Assembly: GCF_010015585.1 (NCBI RefSeq)
Contig: NW_022985109.1
Span: 53,833-85,823 of the forward strand
Direction: 5' to 3'
Length of the DNA stretch: 31,991 nt
DNA from: Eremomyces bilateralis CBS 781.70
Taxonomy: Eukaryota; Ascomycota; Dothideomycetes; Eremomycetales; Eremomycetaceae
This document shows positions 1,295 through 17,136 of the stretch, one piece after another (positions within the stretch are counted from its first letter, which is position 1; every line of letters starts with the position of its first letter). The translations under genes were made by a program, and so were the position numbers. The notes below the pieces were generated by a model, which saw only the letters and a program-made list of their open reading frames with translations, made no database searches and was not told the DNA's origin.

Positions 1295-3188
1295 TCATTT
1301 TGGCGTAATTTCGCAGTCCTGTAGGTGTTTGGGGAGGCGTCGAACACGCTGTGGGCGCGCCCGGTGCCCGCCTTCTTCCACCCCCTCCTGTACCGCTTCT
1401 TCACTGATTTGGAGTTCTTGGGGCTGTAGATTTTGGTGTAAAGAGGTCTGTATACGAGGTTTCTTGACGGTCGGACGGGTTTTCGACTCCTTCTGTAATT
1501 GTTGATCCGCTAATCGTGCCTGACGTAATGCCTCTTTCTTCTTCGCTATATGTGCCTTTTCTTGTTCGCGCAAAGTGCGTGCCTCTAGGCGCTGAATCTT
1601 CCTTTCGAGTAGTAATCTTTCTTTCTCCTCTTTTAGCCGCATCCTCTCTAGCTTTTTCTGCTGTTTTTGGACTTGGAGATCGGATTTTTCCTGCTCTTTT
1701 TGTATCTGGAGTTCGCGAGCTCGCTGAATCTTCGAGGGACTAAAGAATTGGGCCTTAATACCATCGTTTTCAGCACGAAGGTCATCAAAAACCGGTTTAG
1801 CCCGCTTACGTTTCATTTTTTCAGTAACGATAGCCTGCCTTAGGCCCTGATTCTCCGCCCGTAAGAGAACCATATCGGTTGAAAGCTGTGCGACCGCGGT
1901 ATACAATTTTCGAGTCTCCGCGGTTACCACATCACCAACTGCCTCACGTACGATCTGCTTCACATGCCTCCAATCTGAAGAGGATAAGTGAGAATACCCC
2001 GATGAAGAATTAGAGCCCGGCCGATGCGGTTCTTCACTCATCCCTAGCGCCCCGAGAACGATGGACTCATCCAGTGGATTCAGTCCGGTCTTCCGCCAAC
2101 TACTCAAGATGTTTTCCTCGGTGAAGGCCTTGCCCCAAGCGATCCAAAATAAGCGGAAAAAGTCTCTTTTCGAGATAGAATAGAGCCCTTGGCTTTCGGA
2201 GATGTGGCGGTTGAGTTCCTGGCCGTAATATACCGCGAGGGGGCTGAAAAGACTGACATCAAGAGGCTGTAGTCGATGGGTGGTGTGAGGTGGATAACAG
2301 CACACTAATATCTTGTTTTTATCGCACCAATCCAGAAATCTCATATTAATGTGGCTTCCATGCCCGTCAATCACCAGGAGCCGATACCGCCGCCGCGCTT
2401 TTGCCTTGGTATACCGATCGAACACGTTCGTCAGCCAGTTATACCCTAATTCGTCGTTCGTCCATCCCGTTAGTGATGATGCAAAAAAGGCGGCATGTTT
2501 CTGTGCGTCGAAGTCCTGTAACCAAGAGTCCTGGAGATTCCCTGAAACGGCCTGGTAAATCAATCCAGGCGGTAGCCACGATCCATCCGCACAAATAGAG
2601 GCAAGTATGGTAATCCACTCGCGATTACCATCGGTCGTAGCTGACAAGCTCTTATTTTGCCTCATAACCTCTTTTGTGACGATGCGTTTCATCTTGGTCA
2701 TCATCCCGATTAGGAAGCCCTTCTTATCCATATTGTACATATTCTCCGGTACGATCTCATATTCCGCGATTTTTAGGCGTAGTAACTCGTAGAAATCACA
2801 ATAGTCCTTCGCCTTATCCGCATGAGTCCTGGAGCTTTCGATAATACCAAGATATTTGGCGTCGAGTAAGGTGGAGTGCCGTTCCACGAATCGGCCCACC
2901 CAATTTTTGCCCACCTCCTGTTTTGCGATATCCGACGCGAAATTCCATACCATCGCAGAGGTAGGGGGAAACCCATGCCTACATATGTCGTTTATATAGG
3001 TAATTAGCCTAGATTCTTGGTGGGCGCTCAGTTTGCCCTGGTGTTGGTAGGCTTCATGCCTGGAGGTAGACTTTCCGATGGCGCCTCGACAAAGTAGAAC
3101 GATCGACTTGGAACTTCTTTGCAATCGCAGTATAATTAGGCTTTTCTTCCAAGGCTAACGCAGCAAGAGCTGCCTCAATTGGATCCAT
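1295..3188 (-). pseudogene. Pogo/Fot1-type DDE transposase with one N-terminal frameshift
   Basis: Cut-and-paste transposase of the Tc1/mariner superfamily, Pogo branch. Reading leftward from an ATG at 3,188, the first 38 codons give a Psq-type helix-turn-helix (KFQVDRSTLSRRH). Within about 3,072-3,080 a one-base loss shifts the frame; the rest continues as GKSTSRHEAYQ and stays open to the stop at 1,295. The remainder shows a CENP-B/Tc5-type DNA-binding part, the three catalytic aspartates in NMDKKGF, VIDGHGSH and LQPLDVSLF, then a long charged coiled coil and a basic C-terminus (about 1,300-1,850). An ATG at 3,124 opens the long frame, but its first 16 codons are out of register with the family, so I place the true start at 3,188. 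The element's terminal inverted repeats could not be fixed; the best hint is a 7-base inverted pair (1,274-1,280 and 3,272-3,278), too short to trust. Confidence 0.85.
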
Positions 3189-8313: not shown

Positions 8314-8743
8314 ATAACGTATTCCACAAGCGAGTGGCCCATACAAGCGAGTGGCCCAGCTCATTTTACTAGTAAATTCGACAAAATTCGATATCAATAT
8401 CTCAACAACCACTGGATAATATAGTCTGAAAACTTAGAGTTAGGTTTTCCTAGCCATTTCTAGCTTACTATTGAAATATTAAAGCCCTAGCTTTTACAGG
8501 TATAGAGATACCTACTTCTTGGCAAGATTTAGAGACCAAATCTCTATATCTTTATAACTATAAAAGATAAAGCTCTAAGATTCTAATAATAAGCTAGAAA
8601 TCGATAGGAAAACCTAATTCTAAGTTTTCAGACTATATTACCCAGTGGTTGTTGAGATATTGATATCGAATTTTGTCGAATTTACTAGTAAAATGAGCTG
8701 GGCCACTCGCTTGTATGGGCCACTCGCTTGTGGAATACGTTAT
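8314..8743. mobile_element. 430-bp inverted-repeat element (MITE-like)
   Basis: The two ends are exact inverse copies over 102 nt (8,314-8,415 and 8,642-8,743), and the match continues at lower identity to about 190 nt per arm around a short AT-rich centre. Each arm carries the 15-mer ACAAGCGAGTGGCCC twice, 17 nt apart (8,326-8,340 and 8,343-8,357; inverse copies at 8,700-8,714 and 8,717-8,731). Doubled sites inside terminal repeats resemble the transposase binding sites of Tc1/mariner elements. A TA dinucleotide flanks TTCCACAAGC on each side, as that superfamily requires, but the identity extends a few bases beyond it. No coding capacity, so any mobility would depend on a transposase encoded elsewhere. 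Confidence 0.85.
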
Positions 8744-9020: not shown

Positions 9021-9820
9021 TCAGTGTTGAACTTACGCCCCTTCGCGAGGGAAGCGAAGTTCGCTAGTGAGTTCCATTTTAGGATTTTGGCGGTGTCAAC
9101 ATTTCGACGAGACCATGTTGTGTATTGCAAGCCGAGAGAGAGAATAGTTCACTGGGCGATGTCTACTGCAGACTTTTTTGGTTCTGCTCGAATTGGCGAG
9201 GTTGCACAATCATCAGCACGAGAAGATTCAAAACGGGAAAAGAGAGGCTTATATTTCAAGGTAGCACGATCACCCACTCCGATCGACTTCTTCTAAGATA
9301 AATGTCTAGGATGCACATATGTTTGCGATGTTCAGCAAGGACAGAGGGAAAACGGAGCTTTGTATTCGGTTCACAAAAGACGAGAAGGGAAAGAGTGAGG
9401 TACTACAAGACAGGTAGGCTGGCCAACAGGATTCCTTGCAAGATCATTCGCTTACATCTTAATAGGGGCCAGGTAACATTTTACGAAAATATGGAAGGTT
9501 CTCTTTACGAAAACTGCTTTCTCTTTTGCCTAGTAATACTCTTAGCCCGACCGACTTCAGCTTCTGCGACAGCTTTTAAATATCGAGATCAAAGAGCAAC
9601 AGAGATTCTTTAAAATACACTGGAAGCATGGGTTCCGCAATAAACCCTTCTTTGAATGCCCAACGAATGACCTAGGAGAAGTTGAAAAGGCAGAAGCGGT
9701 CCACCGAAGGCATAAAGACGCATGTTATCGTGCAGGTTTACCCAATGCCCCAAACTTTCACGACTTTAGGCGAACGGGCCTCAATAATGCTGGTATATAT
9801 ATAAGATCTTTGCTACTGTG

Positions 9821-9832
9821 ATTACTACTAAT
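9821..9832 (+). repeat. Target-site duplication, left copy
   Basis: ATTACTACTAAT occurs here and again at 15,529-15,540, flanking the LINE. The 12-bp length fits target-primed reverse transcription. The duplicated sequence contains ACTAAT, a good match to a fungal intron branch point. Confidence 0.85.
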
Positions 9833-9944
9833 GAACATTTTTCTGCAAAACAGCCCACAACTTAGAAATTAGCTGAGATTATGATCGTAATCGATTCTTC
9901 ACACTTCATTCAATTATAATCAACTATTACAGCCCTCCCAAATA

Positions 9945-11520
9945 ATGGTTAGAGGGCGCATGAGGGGGAAAGGCCCGCAGGCCAAAGACGCGTCCCCGAC
10001 GCGTCCCCAGCAGGCGGACCACCCACGACCCAACACCCGCAACGGAGTAGGAGAACAAAATGGACGGATGGATGAGGGGCGGATGCTCCAAATTATGGAA
10101 AACCATATAAAACTCGCGTTAGAGAGCTGCCGTGGATGGGCTAGGGCGGGGTCGCTCCGTGGAGTTCTTAAGGCTTACCTAACGCCCGTTCTCCGGCTTA
10201 TTCCGGAGCTAGTATAGAGAAAGAGTATAGGAAAGGCGCAGGCGGGAATACCCGCCAGGGACCCAGCGATAGGTTAAATATTAGAGCGTCTTAGACGTAT
10301 TGAAGCTGGAATCGCGAAAGACCGCGGTCGCCCAGCCGCGGCCCTAACTACCGAGACACGAACCTAGAGTAAGATCGCCGTAGGGGGAAAGACCAAGGCG
10401 GTCGTTGAAGTACGCCTCTCTAAAATGGCAGGAGCCGTAGAAGAGACGACGGAAGAGAAACTATAGAGAATCAAGAAGGTAATCCTAGACGCGAAAGCGA
10501 TTATCCCCTACTACCGGGCAGCCGGTAAGGTGTCGGTCGTGGTTCCTACTACTACCCGACGGGACTAGATTATCGCTACTGGAATCGCTAGGGATAACGG
10601 CATTAAACTAATCCGTCGCCCGAAGCTACTTATAGTAATGGGTATCCCGATTTACACATAGATTACAACCGGTAAAAGTAAGGGGAACACCGAATAGGCG
10701 AGACAGATGTCGAACTAAAACGCTATCAAAATTAAACGAATCTCCTGGCTCTATAAGAAAGAGAAGCTGGCGGCTATCCGGAATGCTGGGTCACAGACGA
10801 AGGGATCAATTATTATCGAGGTAGCTACCGAAACTGACGTGATACGTCTTATTAAGGACGGCTTCCTATATGGCGCCCTATAGCTCCTAGCCAAACTATA
10901 GGACGTTACTCTCCGGGCGATCTAGTGCTTCCGCTATTAGAAATAGGGCTATACGCAGTCCGTTTATAACGCGGACAGCGACACCTGTGGGCGCTGCGCA
11001 AAACACTACCCTATAAGGGGATATATAATACAAGACCTTTAAGAGGCAAGGTGCGCAGGGTATAAGAAACCTGGGCACTTTGCCTAGATGACCAGAAGCT
11101 ACGCGGTATATAAATCCTTCGTAGCTGGCCAGCGAGCTATAGAAAACCGCCTTAATAAAGCTACCCTCGCCGTCTACCGGGGGCAAAACCAAAACCAAAA
11201 CCAAAACCAAAACCAAAATGTCACAACCCACCAGTTCCGCCACGATAACGATGGATATATCGTTATTAGCAACACCCAGAAGCGGAGGAGGGCGGGACCT
11301 AGGAGGCCCTTAGGAATCACGGTAGTAGCCCGAGCCCTAGGGTAGCAGCGACTCTAGCTCTCGGCTAGTTAACCGGAAGACTTTATATCCGGCATTAGTA
11401 CTTCTACCTTTACGATACCTACCGGAAAGGATATAACCGGAGAGGACACGATATCTACCGAAAAGGACATAACCGGAGAGGATACGACACTTACCGGAAA
11501 GGATAATACCCCTAGTACTT
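9945..11520 (+). pseudogene. LINE ORF1 (gag-like, RIP-broken)
   Basis: From an ATG at 9,945 the frame is open for 90 codons of basic, Gly/Arg/Pro-rich sequence, then is cut by many TAG stops. Near 10,990-11,085 cysteine/histidine clusters remain (CAKHY, then CAGYKKPGHFA), matching nucleic-acid-binding zinc knuckles; the Tyr in the second cluster is what a TGT-to-TAT change would give. Between about 11,184 and 11,218 a CAAAAC hexamer array encodes alternating Gln-Asn. The 3' end of ORF1 was not fixed exactly. In the family, ORF1 coats the RNA for retrotransposition. Confidence 0.75.
11184..11218 (+). repeat. CAAAAC hexamer microsatellite
   Basis: About six tandem copies of CAAAAC lie inside LINE ORF1 and encode a (Gln-Asn)n run. 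Although every unit holds a CpA, none has become TpA, in contrast to its surroundings. Confidence 0.9.
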
Positions 11521-11529
11521 AATAATAGG

Positions 11530-14500
11530 GACCGGCATCCTCTAATATAACTGCGGTAATGCGAACAACGACAAGGCTAGGGCTACCTTCGACTCGATTG
11601 ACCCTACCCGGTTCCCTATACTTGTAATTCAGGAACCGATGGTCGCCGAAACCAAACCAACAGTCACCTATACACCAAAGAATTTTCACCCAAGCCGACC
11701 TATATACTACGGTATACGGGTCGTCTTCTTTATCTACGATAAGATCCTTCTTACAGCTTGGGAATCAAAGCGAGCCTCCGACCACATCGAATGGATCCGC
11801 GTTATAACGCGTGACGGACCCCTCAACCTCGTTAACGTATATAATCCACCAGGGCACGTAGGCTAGCCACAGCTTGAGAAGTGGCCGGAGATCGTAGAAA
11901 TTCTCTGCGAAATTGGCCAAGAGAACGTTATCCTCCTAGGGGACTTTAACTACTATTACCCAGCCTGGGGTAGAACCGGAACCCTAAAGGAGCTAAAGGT
12001 AGACTACCTACTCCTCTAAACCGAGTAAGCTAACCTCTAGCTCCTTAACGAGTAAGGGGTAATAATATAGAAGCGGAACTAAAGCTAGTCGGTTATTAAC
12101 CTAGCCTTTGCCTCGCCGGAGATCGCCTTACGGATCCTCCTCTACTACCTACGGCCGGAGTAGTCTACTATAAAGGACCACTTTCTAATCGAGATCTAAC
12201 TAGATGCTAAGGTTTCCTTATACTAGACGAGCCTAAGGTTCACACTCAAGGATGCCCCGTAGGAAAAAATCCGGGAAGATGTCTCTAGCTCCTAGTAGTA
12301 TGTGCCAGAACCCTATACTACGATTAACAACCTTATTAGACTTCTTTACGGCACCTTAGACAAGCACTATAAACGGGCGCGACCTTGTGACTAGTCTAGA
12401 CCGGAGTAGTCACCATAGGCAGCAGAGTTCCTAGCTGGCGCCCGCTAGGCCCGACGCCGGCTCTAACGGACCTAGGACCCGGACGACGAACGAGACTAGA
12501 AATACTAAAGGAATGCCCTAAGGAGGAAGATGCGTAGTAACGGCCGGACGAGATAGAGAAAACTTATCTAGACACTTACTAAAGACGAGAATTACCCGGA
12601 CTATATATATAACCGAGGGCTCTAGAGACTAAATAAGTAGAGCCAGAAGACCGCTAGGCAACCCGGTAGGCTTACAGCTATCCTACTACTTAGGCGCACG
12701 GAGAACGATCCCCCGACGGGAGATAACTAAGGGAAAGCAGAGATCCTTGCTATAAAGTTCTTCCTACGGAGCGGTGCCGCTGACCTCTAAGATATAACCA
12801 ACGAATAGTTCCCACGATTCGATATCGGGCAAGAGGTTACCCTAGATAAGATCACCCGGATTATCCGCCGGCTACCGAACCAGAAGGCCCCCGGGCCTAA
12901 CATGATCCCGAACGAGGTACTAAAGGCCCTCTCTAATATCCTAGCCGTAGACCTAGCCCGGACGGTCACCGCTCTCTTCCGAAGCGGGGAGCTACTAGCA
13001 GTTCTAAAGGAATCTACTACGGTGGTACTAAGGAAGGACAAGAAAAAGGACTACTCTCTTCTAAGCAGCTACCGCCCTATTACTCTTAAAAACACGGTTA
13101 TAAAGCTAATCGAGAAAATCCTCGCAGATCGACTGATCACTGAAGCGGAAATACGAGATCTGATTCCCTAGAACCAAATGGGAGCTCGAAAGGAGAGATC
13201 TACTCTCTCCGCCCTAGAACTCCTTACCGGGACTATATAGACGGCGTAGCACGTAAAGAAGTCTGTGGTCTCTATACTTGGGCTTGACCTTGCTGGAGCT
13301 TTTGATAACGTCTCTTACCCCCGGCTGCTCTAGGTCCTTCGTCGGATAGGATATCCCGAATAGATTATCTAGATAATCGCATCTTTCTTAACCGGACGGC
13401 GAACAAAGATTCTCTTCTCGGACTTTAAGAGCCGCTAGTTCGACACGGAGACAGGGATCCCGCAAGGCTCTACCCTATCACCCGCGCTGTTTATCCTATT
13501 TATTGAGATTGGAATATCTGTAGAGGCTCAATCTTCCACGATTGGAATATCTACAAAGGCTCAACCTCAGGCACAGTGGGTAAGGAACTCCATATAGTTC
13601 AAAGGAAGAAAGATAAGACGAAGAACGATACCAGCTGTAGCTGTTGTTCTCAGAATGACAGTCTAATATCTGTAGAATAGTTGAGTTGTGATTTACTAAA
13701 TAACAGTACAGGACTGCTCATTATATAGCCTTCCTGCCTATCTGTTTGCAGCAAATTCCCTACCTTTGTCTTTAGAAGAATGTTCGTACAAAGGAAAGGT
13801 TGGTAAAAGAGATTGACCACCTTGAAAGGGGTCATCCAAACATCAAAGGATCTTGATGCCTGAGGCATCAAGTTCCACACAGGTTGGAAACAAAGACAAC
13901 AGCTTGTCGTTGAAGACAGCCATGTCAACACTATTTATATCTAACCTACTATATCAGTTTAAGGATGTTCAGGGTAACGTGCTCGGGTTCGGGTTCGTTA
14001 ATAATACTACACTGGTTACCTAGGGAGATACGGCAGTAGCTAACTGCCAACGACTAACTGCGGCCTACGATACTTGCCTGGAATGGGCGTCACGGTTCGG
14101 GGCTAAATTTGCCCCGGATAAGTACTAGATTATCTACTTTACTAAGAAACGTAATATTTCCGCTAATCTCCGGTCTACGATCTAAATATAGGGATATTAA
14201 GCTAAATTAGTTATATCCCTCCGGGTACTAGGAGTTTGGCTCGACCCTTCCCTCTTATAGAAGGACTATATCCTCCGGGTAATATAGAGGGGACTTAAGG
14301 CCTTCGACTCCCTGGCGAGGGTAACTTTATCGGTATAGGGACTATCCGTCCGGAAATCGAGGCTGCTCTACATAGCGGTTGCACGGCCTATTATAATATA
14401 CGGCGCCCCTATTTGGGGAGTCTGTTAGTAGGGTGAGCTAATCTCTGAAGGCAAAATGAAGGACCTAGCTAAGGTTCAGAACAAGTGTCTACGAAAGATC

Positions 14501-15319
14501 CTAGGGGCTTATAAACGGACACCAATCGCCGCGCTTGAGAGAGAGGCGGACGTTCCCCCAATCGAACTCTACGTCCAAGAACGGGCCGCCCAAAGAGCAG
14601 CATCGACGAATACCCACAAGATCACTACCTAGATTAAGGGAGCCCTAACGCAAGTCTAGGATACTACTTCTGCTCCCCCGAGACGAACTCGAGGCCGACC
14701 CCGCCGTATCCGGTCTAAACCTAAACCCGCGATAAGTACGCTTCGGACCTAGTATAACAGACTTCTATTCCCCCGGCCCGAACTAATTAGAGGATATTAG
14801 ATATAATAGCGAAAAGGCCCGTACCGGATGATCTAGGACGAGTATCGAGCGAAATAGAGGGAGAGATAGTAAGCCGAAGCGGCCAGACTAGGAAGGAGAG
14901 TAAGGACATAGAAGGACCCGTAGGAAACCCAGTACCTTAACCGGTACGACGGCCTTTAGAAATACGAGGCCTCGGCGCTTATAGTACTACGGACTAAGGT
15001 AGTTAGAGTTAAAGGATGGCTCGCAAAAATTAGTATCCCTGGAATCCACCCAGCGTATGAGTACGGTGCCCCCCGACAGTCTCTCTACTATCTCCTTACA
15101 TTTTGCCCGCAGCGGACCGACCAGAGGATCGAGCTCCTCTAACGAGCTGGAACAACGGACTTTAAGAGGATATTGCATAACAGGGACAAGGTGCGCCACG
15201 CAGCAAGGTGGCTGATCAATGCGGGAGGCCTAGAGCAATACCGGGTGGCCAAGGAAGTTAAGGAGGAGGTAATAGAGGACTAGAAACCGTTCCAGCTCCT
15301 CCACGACGTGCCAGAATAA
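11530..15319 (+). pseudogene. LINE ORF2: endonuclease plus reverse transcriptase (RIP-broken)
   Basis: This encoded the nicking and copying enzyme of the element. Recognisable parts in order: APE-type endonuclease with NLVNVYNPPG (about 11,825-11,855) and LGDFN (11,936-11,950); RT fingers with NQKAPGPNMIP (about 12,880-12,912); YRPITLKNTVIKLIEKILADR (13,069-13,131); GIPQGSTLSP (13,454-13,483); and the catalytic YxDD-equivalent site read as FVNNT near 13,995-14,008, where both Asp codons now read Asn, as TpG-to-TpA changes would give. The C-terminal part matches 2-1,036 of copy 1. Many in-frame TAG/TAA codons break it, and a 427-bp insertion splits the RT between GIPQGSTLSP and FVNNT. Confidence 0.88.
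13504..13930 (-). mobile_element. 427-bp LTR-like insertion (probable solo LTR)
   Basis: This block interrupts the LINE reverse-transcriptase region and is bounded by an 8-bp direct repeat, CTATTTAT (13,496-13,503 and 13,931-13,938). Read on the minus strand it begins TGTTGACATGG and ends with CA, as LTRs do, and holds a TATA-like GCTATATAATG. It contains a 21-bp palindrome (13,852-13,872) and two imperfect 33-bp tandem units at 13,507-13,572. A solo Ty1/Copia-type LTR is my best reading; the 8-bp duplication is longer than the usual 5 bp, so a non-autonomous hAT-like element remains possible. It is younger than the LINE insertion. Confidence 0.65.
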
Positions 15320-15528
15320 GCTCTCCGCGTAGGCGGAAACACCGACTCTTACGGATAGATAATAAACGTTTAAGATAGTCTACTAAAGGGAGGAGGCGGG
15401 ATTTTATATACCCGCAGCCTCAGGGCTACGGGGAAACTTTTGCCCGCGGCAGACCAGATAGAATATCGTGCTCATAGACCCGAAAGGGATCCAGATAGTA
15501 CGTTAAATTGATTCTTATTATTATTATT

Positions 15529-15540
15529 ATTACTACTAAT
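15529..15540 (+). repeat. Target-site duplication, right copy
   Basis: Second ATTACTACTAAT, directly after the TTA-repeat tail of the LINE and 11 nt before the 3' splice site (CAG at 15,549-15,551) of the interrupted DUF3435 intron. Confidence 0.85.
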
Positions 15541-17136
15541 TGTTCTCTCAGATGGACAAAACTCGGAACCGTCCCGCATGCGACTTGCAGGTCACGCCAA
15601 AGCAGGCATTTTCCGCGGGCATTACCAACCCAGAGAAACCATCGACGGGGCGGCAAACTTTCTTGACAAAGATAAGAGAACGGACGTCCTTGAAATTAGC
15701 CGACAGCTGAACATTCCCTACATCCCATATCTGCTGCAGTCCCTGCCCGCGGAAGAGCTCCATAACCTTCAGCGTAGCAGAGAATATCAGAAATTGCAAA
15801 GGCAGATAGATGGGGAAACGAAAATATTCGAAGTTACCAAGGATGCTGGAATCGCTAAAACTAGATAGATTAAAACGGTTGCGGGCAAGCCAGGCCTACG
15901 ATAATCCGCCCAGATACGAGCATGAGATATACTCTCGCTTCAGATTTATGCTGTCGCGAGAAAGGCGTCGCCTCGAGGTCAACTTGTTCGAAGAGGTGCC
16001 GTTAAGGAGCCCAATTGGTATGTAAGTTATCGAAGATCTCCTCACTCTCTACCTTCGGGATAAAGAGGTGGAATTTCGACTGGGTTTAGAGCCAGACCGG
16101 TGCTTTTGTTCCCTGCCCAGTCACAAGTACGACTAGAGACATATTCTGGACTGCTACAAGGCCTATTACACTAAGATTCATGGATTCGCCGAGCTCTGCT
16201 TCCTTTACAATGTCTGGATTCATGACCGGGAGGAATGGGAGGGGCACTGCCAAGGCCACATCGACTATATTGCCCAGTTTCCTATTTGGGTTGATCCGCT
16301 CGTATATGACGGAGTTCTTGCGGTTGCGGGATTTTGCGAGTGTTGCTTAATCAATCCGCGATTACCAGCTTCTGCACGAATGCGTCAATTTCCGTGGCGC
16401 CATACCTGGTACCGTCATTATCAATCGCACTACGAGGATTCCAAGTTCGAACCGAAATGCCGCCATGGATCGTTTACTTCCCTCCTTGAGCTACAGCTCC
16501 ACCTCCATGACCGCCACGGTGTGCGTATCCCTGAGATATCAAGGCAGTGTGGGCAAGGTAAGCGGCGCAGACCGGAAATTGCAGAACCTTACTTCCGCAG
16601 AAACTGCAAGCGACGCAAGGCCTGCAGTGACAACGAAGAGGAGCAGGAGACGACATGTGTATTCCTAAATAGCACCGTTGATTCCATTGCCTCGAATCTA
16701 GTTGAACAACGCTCGGCAAAGTTGTCAGTAAGAACTCCTTCACCGCCAGCCGGCTTCGACTGCGCACCGATATTCGACAGCGGTTGCTCTGTCTATCCTG
16801 ATATTGATCTGGTAAACTCGGATGCTGCTTCTGGACCGTACTATACCTTGAGCGACGAGCCAAAACCCGGCCCTACCGACCAGGGTTCTCAGCGTATTCC
16901 TACGCCGGATTTCATTTCGGACGCTGAATTTATAGATATTGACGATTGTTCCGTTGATTTGGGAGATAACCTTGAATCAGCTGCTTTAATAACGGAAATC
17001 GAAAAGATCGACCTTACCGGCAGAGTTAAGATCGGAGAATTGGCGGACATGGTGTCTGAGCTAATCCAGGATAGAAGATGATCGCAAACACGATGGTAAT
17101 CCGGCTGGGATCCTGGCTGAGCCGGATTTCGCTGCC

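Follow-up and report, generated by a model that had tools for sequence, protein, structure and literature searches.

A long interspersed nuclear element (LINE) that splits a fungal gene raises the question of what exactly was hit, and of how a splicing signal came to stand at both ends of the element. The locus lies in a 31,991-base stretch of Eremomyces bilateralis CBS 781.70 (G000:C43:53833-85823; hereafter the window, in which positions are counted), within a 26.6-Mb genome of 62 contigs. The DUF3435 genes, short introns and RIP described below would suit a filamentous ascomycete. The interrupted gene is related to the DUF3435 (PF11917) family. The analysis indicates, with a probability of about 0.92, that ordinary target-primed reverse transcription placed the LINE in a 51-nt phase-1 intron of a decaying DUF3435 gene; that the branch motif of this intron was duplicated in the target-site duplication (TSD); and that repeat-induced point mutation (RIP) and a nested insertion followed.

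Target site and ends of the LINE

The features at the two ends of the element are:
9821..9832, + strand, upstream TSD copy ATTACTACTAAT, with branch-point-like TACTAAT (putative branch A at 9831)
9833..15528, + strand, LINE (non-LTR retrotransposon), RIP-mutated and carrying a nested 427-bp insert; its ends are common to other genomic copies, and it has endonuclease and reverse transcriptase domains
15515..15528, + strand, (TTA)n tail of the LINE
15529..15540, + strand, downstream TSD copy ATTACTACTAAT, with branch-point-like TACTAAT (putative branch A at 15539)

The 12-nt sequence ATTACTACTAAT occurs exactly twice on the + strand of the window, which was the strand searched. The upstream copy abuts the conserved LINE 5′ end at 9833, and the downstream copy follows directly after the (TTA)n tail. 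The chance of such a match at 12 given positions is about 6e-8; leaving out the four bases that may overlap the tail (ATTA), it is about 1.5e-5 for the remaining 8 nt. These four bases could be assigned either to the LINE tail or to the TSD. The other 8 nt, CTACTAAT, retain the whole TACTAAT, and the motif is present in each copy whether the TSD is taken as 8 or 12 nt. The claim of the sequence-only reading that the duplication holds the probable branch point agrees with this result.

The boundaries were compared with other genomic copies, using the first 468 bases after the upstream TSD and the last 555 bases through the downstream TSD as queries. At the 5′ end, 12 of the 13 matches start at 9833; at the 3′ end, 38 of the 41 matches end at query positions 538-555, the last 18 bases (both counts include the present copy and are lower bounds). 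The upstream flanks of different LINE copies are unrelated, and the 3′ ends read GATTC or a variant, then (TTA)n or a variant, then unrelated sequence. Because the ends are common to the copies and the flanks are not, the LINE was placed at 9833-15528, and the 12-nt repeat was assigned to the target and not to the element. The position of CTACTAAT, directly after the tail, might suggest that it is part of the LINE 3′ end; however, the other copies read pass from (TTA)n into unrelated sequence, and the same 12 nt also precede the LINE at its other end, so that this explanation has practically no chance. The 12-nt repeat was ruled out as LINE sequence on the evidence of these copies at other loci.

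The ancestral intron and its DUF3435 relatives

The host sequences on both sides of the insertion are:
9546..9792, + strand, DUF3435-like exon 5′ of the insertion (open frame), ending in FHDFRRTGLNNA plus the first base of a split codon
9793..9820, + strand, 5′ remnant of the ancestral intron, with donor GTATAT
15541..15551, + strand, 3′ remnant of the ancestral intron, TGTTCTCTCAG, with acceptor CAG
15552..15868, + strand, DUF3435-like exon 3′ of the insertion (open frame; profile match when joined), with an in-frame TAG at 15866-15868

Within 9761-9832, GT is found only at 9793 and 9818. Removal of the LINE and one TSD copy leaves a 51-nt GT-AG phase-1 intron, GTATATATATAAGATCTTTGCTACTGTGATTACTACTAATTGTTCTCTCAG, which runs from the donor at 9793 to the CAG ending at 15551 and is 71% AT. 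The reading frame across the join is GLNNA-D-GQNSEPSRMRLAGH, and the exons thus read straight across with 9,793-15,551 removed, as the sequence-only reading had proposed. The putative branch-point A (CTAAT) is 12 nt from the intron end. In sequence, the intron has the features of a U2 spliceosomal intron: GTATAT, CTAAT, the 12-nt spacing, CAG, and phase 1 as in nine paralogues. The joined exons (177 aa) match PF11917 with 26.4 bits against a cut-off of 25.8, over residues 3-120 and profile positions 132-259, and the match spans the join; neither exon alone gave a Pfam DUF3435 match.

The genome profile search revealed 46 matches to PF11917, none of them on this contig. Twelve paralogues were examined out of these matches, and ten further rows at seven places were left out. 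The profile match breaks at positions 209-215 in 10 of the 12 and resumes at 212-216 after 50-106 bases. Among the paralogues examined (L032-L061), nine show a phase-1 GT-AG intron of 52-111 nt that could be resolved at the corresponding position, plus or minus one codon, with no stop around or after the join; these introns lie between the HxxR-like and GH boxes. One paralogue (C7) has a stop shortly before the join. Together with the Pfam match of the joined exons, the paralogue introns bear out the earlier proposal that a DUF3435 gene once had an intron of about 51 nt here, and a chance frame fit was made unlikely by the same two results.

The distance from the branch A to the intron end is 11-14 nt in six paralogues and 22 nt in two, and one has no CTRAY. 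The 12-nt spacing is therefore usual in this group. The sequence-only reading had set the branch point about 13 nt from the acceptor; the short spacing stands, whereas the exact figure is 12 nt. In four Fusarium species, 91% of 2022 core-gene introns have CTRAY as their branch motif, and these introns are 42-529 nt long (PMC5677156). For Aspergillus fumigatus and A. nidulans, PMC2483917 gives median intron lengths of 61 and 63 nt, respectively.

Several observations weigh against an intron insertion in a DUF3435 gene. The putative branch point is a motif match, and the PF11917 score of the joined exons is barely above the cut-off. Three paralogues (C20, C13 and C32) gave no clean GT-AG solution and were dropped before alignment. 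Several intron solutions fit in five of the nine (C5p, C3, C17, C12 and C1), for which the conserved spacing was chosen, and one alternative solution for C12 is of phase 0. In the MAFFT alignment, the split codon falls in column 70 in all nine paralogues and, flanked by gaps, in column 67 for the window gene. By ungapped count against five paralogues, the window intron is shifted one codon upstream relative to four of them, in the same phase, and the fifth (C23) has a longer spacing; a compensating indel or a slid intron must therefore be assumed. Two other DUF3435 places (C9:803119 and C1:2372925) continue through this point in one frame, which indicates that the intron is common but not universal in these genes. 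No empty allele was found among the places searched: in the genome, the downstream exon matches only itself, and a search with the joined exons (E up to 10) returned nothing beyond the two places from which they come; two other collections, viral_contigs (7 pattern stretches) and genome_contigs (86 pattern stretches), from which very near records may be excluded, yielded no confirmed relative.

The weak profile match and the two genes without a frame break would also suit a different explanation, in which no intron ever existed, the target was a coding or non-coding stretch, and the GT-AG fit arose by chance. However, the phase and place agree with 9 of the 12 paralogues within one codon; the donor, branch motif and acceptor are all there; and the DUF3435 match appears only when the exons are joined. 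An insertion without any intron is thus very improbable, and the insertion into an intron is retained below.

The joined exons resemble DUF3435 genes in their Pfam match and in the common phase-1 intron place. The HDFR...GH...Y order in the window gene is presumably the tyrosine-recombinase residue motif. The DUF3435 family includes the Starship captains.

State of the host gene and possible splicing

The window gene differs from other DUF3435 genes in being a relic, with 128 of the 418 profile positions recognisable. Its domain is not full-length and covers profile positions 132-259 only. None of the pieces tried, four upstream and two downstream, gave a DUF3435 match, and the downstream exon contains the in-frame TAG.

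The 3′ end of the intron still reads TACTAATTGTTCTCTCAG at the downstream side. The sequence-only reading had suggested that this may be a working intron end, now of a 5.8-kb intron. Such use is compatible with the sequence but unlikely to matter, given the relic state of the gene, the RIP mutations of the LINE and a nearer AG behind the upstream branch copy:
9833..9853, + strand, LINE 5′ terminus GAACATTTTTCTGCAAAACAG; the first AG after the upstream branch point, a putative 3′ site, ends at 9853

This AG is 22 nt after the upstream branch A and would close a 61-nt intron. A splicing machinery used to short introns would presumably meet it first.

Two splicing outcomes have to be weighed here. 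The downstream branch point and TGTTCTCTCAG might still be used with the distant GTATAT donor, so that the whole 5.76-kb intron is removed; the donor (9793), branch motif (15539) and acceptor (15551) are intact, and the branch-acceptor spacing resembles that of the paralogues. However, the host gene has decayed, with no DUF3435 match on the contig in the genome search and none in the upstream pieces tried, and with the TAG at 15866; there is a competing 3′ site at 9831/9853; RIP has mutated the body of the intron; and the core-gene introns of the four Fusarium species do not exceed 529 nt (PMC5677156). Removal of the long intron is accordingly hardly to be expected. Alternatively, the upstream branch copy and the first AG of the LINE might be used, and the host exon would then be spliced into the LINE through a 61-nt intron, with the LINE as terminal exon. 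The order and spacing of GTATAT...TACTAAT...TTTTTCTGCAAAACAG are those of a fungal intron, and an AG 22 nt past the branch A is the same as in two paralogues; against this, the host gene has decayed and the RIP-mutated LINE is probably silenced. This outcome is somewhat less improbable than the former, but it also remains unlikely. The insertion into the intron of a decaying gene probably has no function.

Identity of the LINE and the nested element

The genome profile search, in which stops were read through, identified two domains in the element, the second of which is cut by a nested element:
11825..12190, + strand (G000:C43:65657-66022), endonuclease domain PF14529, with 5 TAG and 4 TAA inside
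13040..13507, + strand (G000:C43:66872-67339), reverse transcriptase domain PF00078, positions 2-135, with 7 TAG inside, cut by the nested insert
13504..13930, no strand assigned, TG...CA element of 427 bp, nested in the reverse transcriptase domain, with 8-bp duplications CTATTTAT at 13496-13503 and 13931-13938

The APE-type endonuclease scored 40.3 bits against a cut-off of 27.4, and the reverse transcriptase 79.3 bits against 29.6. Across both domains the stops are 12 TAG, 4 TAA and 0 TGA. These domains and the ends shared with other copies establish the LINE that the sequence-only reading had seen between 9793 and 15551, and narrow it to 9833-15528. The domains, the 5′-truncated copies, the variable simple-repeat tail and the TSDs of 11-16 nt are all as in LINEs and other non-LTR retrotransposons. 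There is no difference in kind; the present TSD just happens to cover the branch-point motif. Tad1 is the LINE clade that we would expect in such fungi.

A second full-length copy of the same LINE is located on the same contig (L083 / L003, G000:C43:35092-40360), inside an open frame that looks hAT-transposase-like by eye.

The insertion point of the nested element is uninterrupted in the four fetched LINE loci that span it (L003, L016, L071 and L077). The 427-bp element itself has 16 matches in the genome, this one included. It shows no RIP signature, though the LINE is RIP-mutated on both sides. The nested element was probably inserted after RIP, or it escaped RIP as a short low-copy sequence.

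Other insertions of the LINE family

Twenty-two pairs of LINE ends, the present one included, were surveyed for TSDs of at least 11 nt, which were found in nine pairs, again including the present one. A tenth TSD of 13 nt belongs to a composite copy on C24, for which the 5′ flank of one of the two parts (C24a/C24b) was paired with the 3′ flank of the other. Among the 13 pairs without a TSD of at least 11 nt, which include C24a and C24b, three had N runs before the element and the others had rearranged or diverged ends. For the copies on C2, C21 and C48 no TSD was readable, since the fetched stretch did not contain their 3′ ends.

The ten TSDs are 11-16 nt long with the tail-assignable bases included. 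The nine others are TTAATAAATTAGAGGA, TATAAATAACATAT, TATATCTCGTAGGGA, TATATAAATTACTG, TTATTTGCCTC, ATATCTACGCGCG, TTAATTAGTAACAA, TAATATCATGTAAA and TACATACTGGGCA. All ten have a T/A-rich start (ATTA, TTA, TAT, TAA or ATAT; one TAC) that continues from the tail, and pairing between tail and target during priming would therefore be a natural reading. In three copies, extra bases stand between the TSD and the LINE start (21 nt in L083, 1480-1500; 11 nt in L090, 1490-1500; 8 nt in L009, the C11 copy), and two further copies have 1 nt. These extra bases may be non-templated or derived from longer transcripts.

CTRAY on the LINE strand is present in only one of the ten TSDs, that of the present locus. 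By eye, ATTAG (CTAAT on the opposite strand) was found in two of the nine others, TTAATAAATTAGAGGA and TTAATTAGTAACAA. A branch-point preference of the LINE family is not supported by these ten TSDs, which are a small sample. Because the intron is AT-rich and no CTRAY is found on the LINE strand in the other nine TSDs, the hit on the branch point is most simply seen as a side effect of a T/A-rich target. A more far-reaching idea is that the duplication gave two complete 3′ intron ends at once, the first closed by the initial AG of the LINE (61-nt intron, with the LINE as exon) and the second left as it was at the distal side, so that the LINE could switch between exon and intron, and that entry at T/A-rich sites may favour branch-point regions. 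This is a rather remote prospect; if it were true, a family bias to branch-point regions would be a repeatable low-harm way for a LINE to enter genes.

RIP and age of the insertion

The LINE was compared at 14286-15523 with the neighbour copy at 3-1240 of the window. There are 59 differences in 1238 aligned nt, comprising 30 G>A, 26 C>T, 2 A>G and 1 T>C, with no transversions. All but one of the 56 G>A and C>T changes are at TpG or CpA, so that 55 of the 59 differences are of RIP type. The TA/AT index is 1.59 and 1.55 in the two parts of the LINE. It is 0.87 for the nested element and 0.84 for the neighbour copy, and the two exons adjoining the mutated LINE have low values of 0.73 and 0.64. 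The LINE has been mutated by RIP. The bias of C>T at CpA and G>A at TpG is that of RIP in fungal repeats generally, without any difference.

The contrast between matching positions of the same LINE about 14 kb apart is sharp: one copy carries 55 RIP-type changes, whereas the neighbour has a 344-aa open frame at 2-1036.

RIP aside, only 4 changes are left in 1.2 kb, and the insertion therefore looks young. The frame has been lost on both sides of the joined exons, which is taken to need longer, and so the DUF3435 gene was probably already dead when the LINE was inserted.

Two further features of the window lie outside the gene and the LINE. An inverted repeat at 8314-8743 has 197-nt arms that are 92% complementary and 36 nt apart, with the look of a foldback element or a miniature inverted-repeat transposable element. 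A long open frame at 1298-3154 (- strand) contains DDE_1 and HTH_Tnp_Tc5 domains, and we take it to be a pogo/Fot1-like transposase.

Proposed history and significance

The following order of events is proposed. Target-primed reverse transcription brought the LINE into the 51-nt phase-1 intron of a DUF3435 (tyrosine-recombinase-like) gene that was probably decaying already. The target was nicked at ATTA, with which the (TTA)n tail of the LINE RNA could have paired to prime the synthesis. The second cut was made 8-12 nt downstream, just beyond the putative branch-point motif, and the TSD thereby carried this motif to both ends of the LINE. The copy was then inactivated by RIP, and the 427-bp element entered the reverse transcriptase region, probably later. 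The boundaries, the TSD, the intron position, RIP and the nested insert are shown by the data, and the rest of this account is inferred. That the branch point was duplicated is most simply explained by chance, through the positions at which the two strands happened to be cut. The structure is confirmed, and the insertion is ordinary in kind.

No report of a LINE that duplicates a branch point in a fungus was met among the literature search results consulted, which is no evidence that none exists. No long-standing question hangs on this locus. It provides a clear worked case of a target-site duplication that copies a splicing signal, and a stack of events (intron, LINE insertion, RIP and nested insertion) that can be put in order. 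More widely, insertion of LINEs with (TTA)n tails may be more frequent at AT-rich intron ends than in exons.

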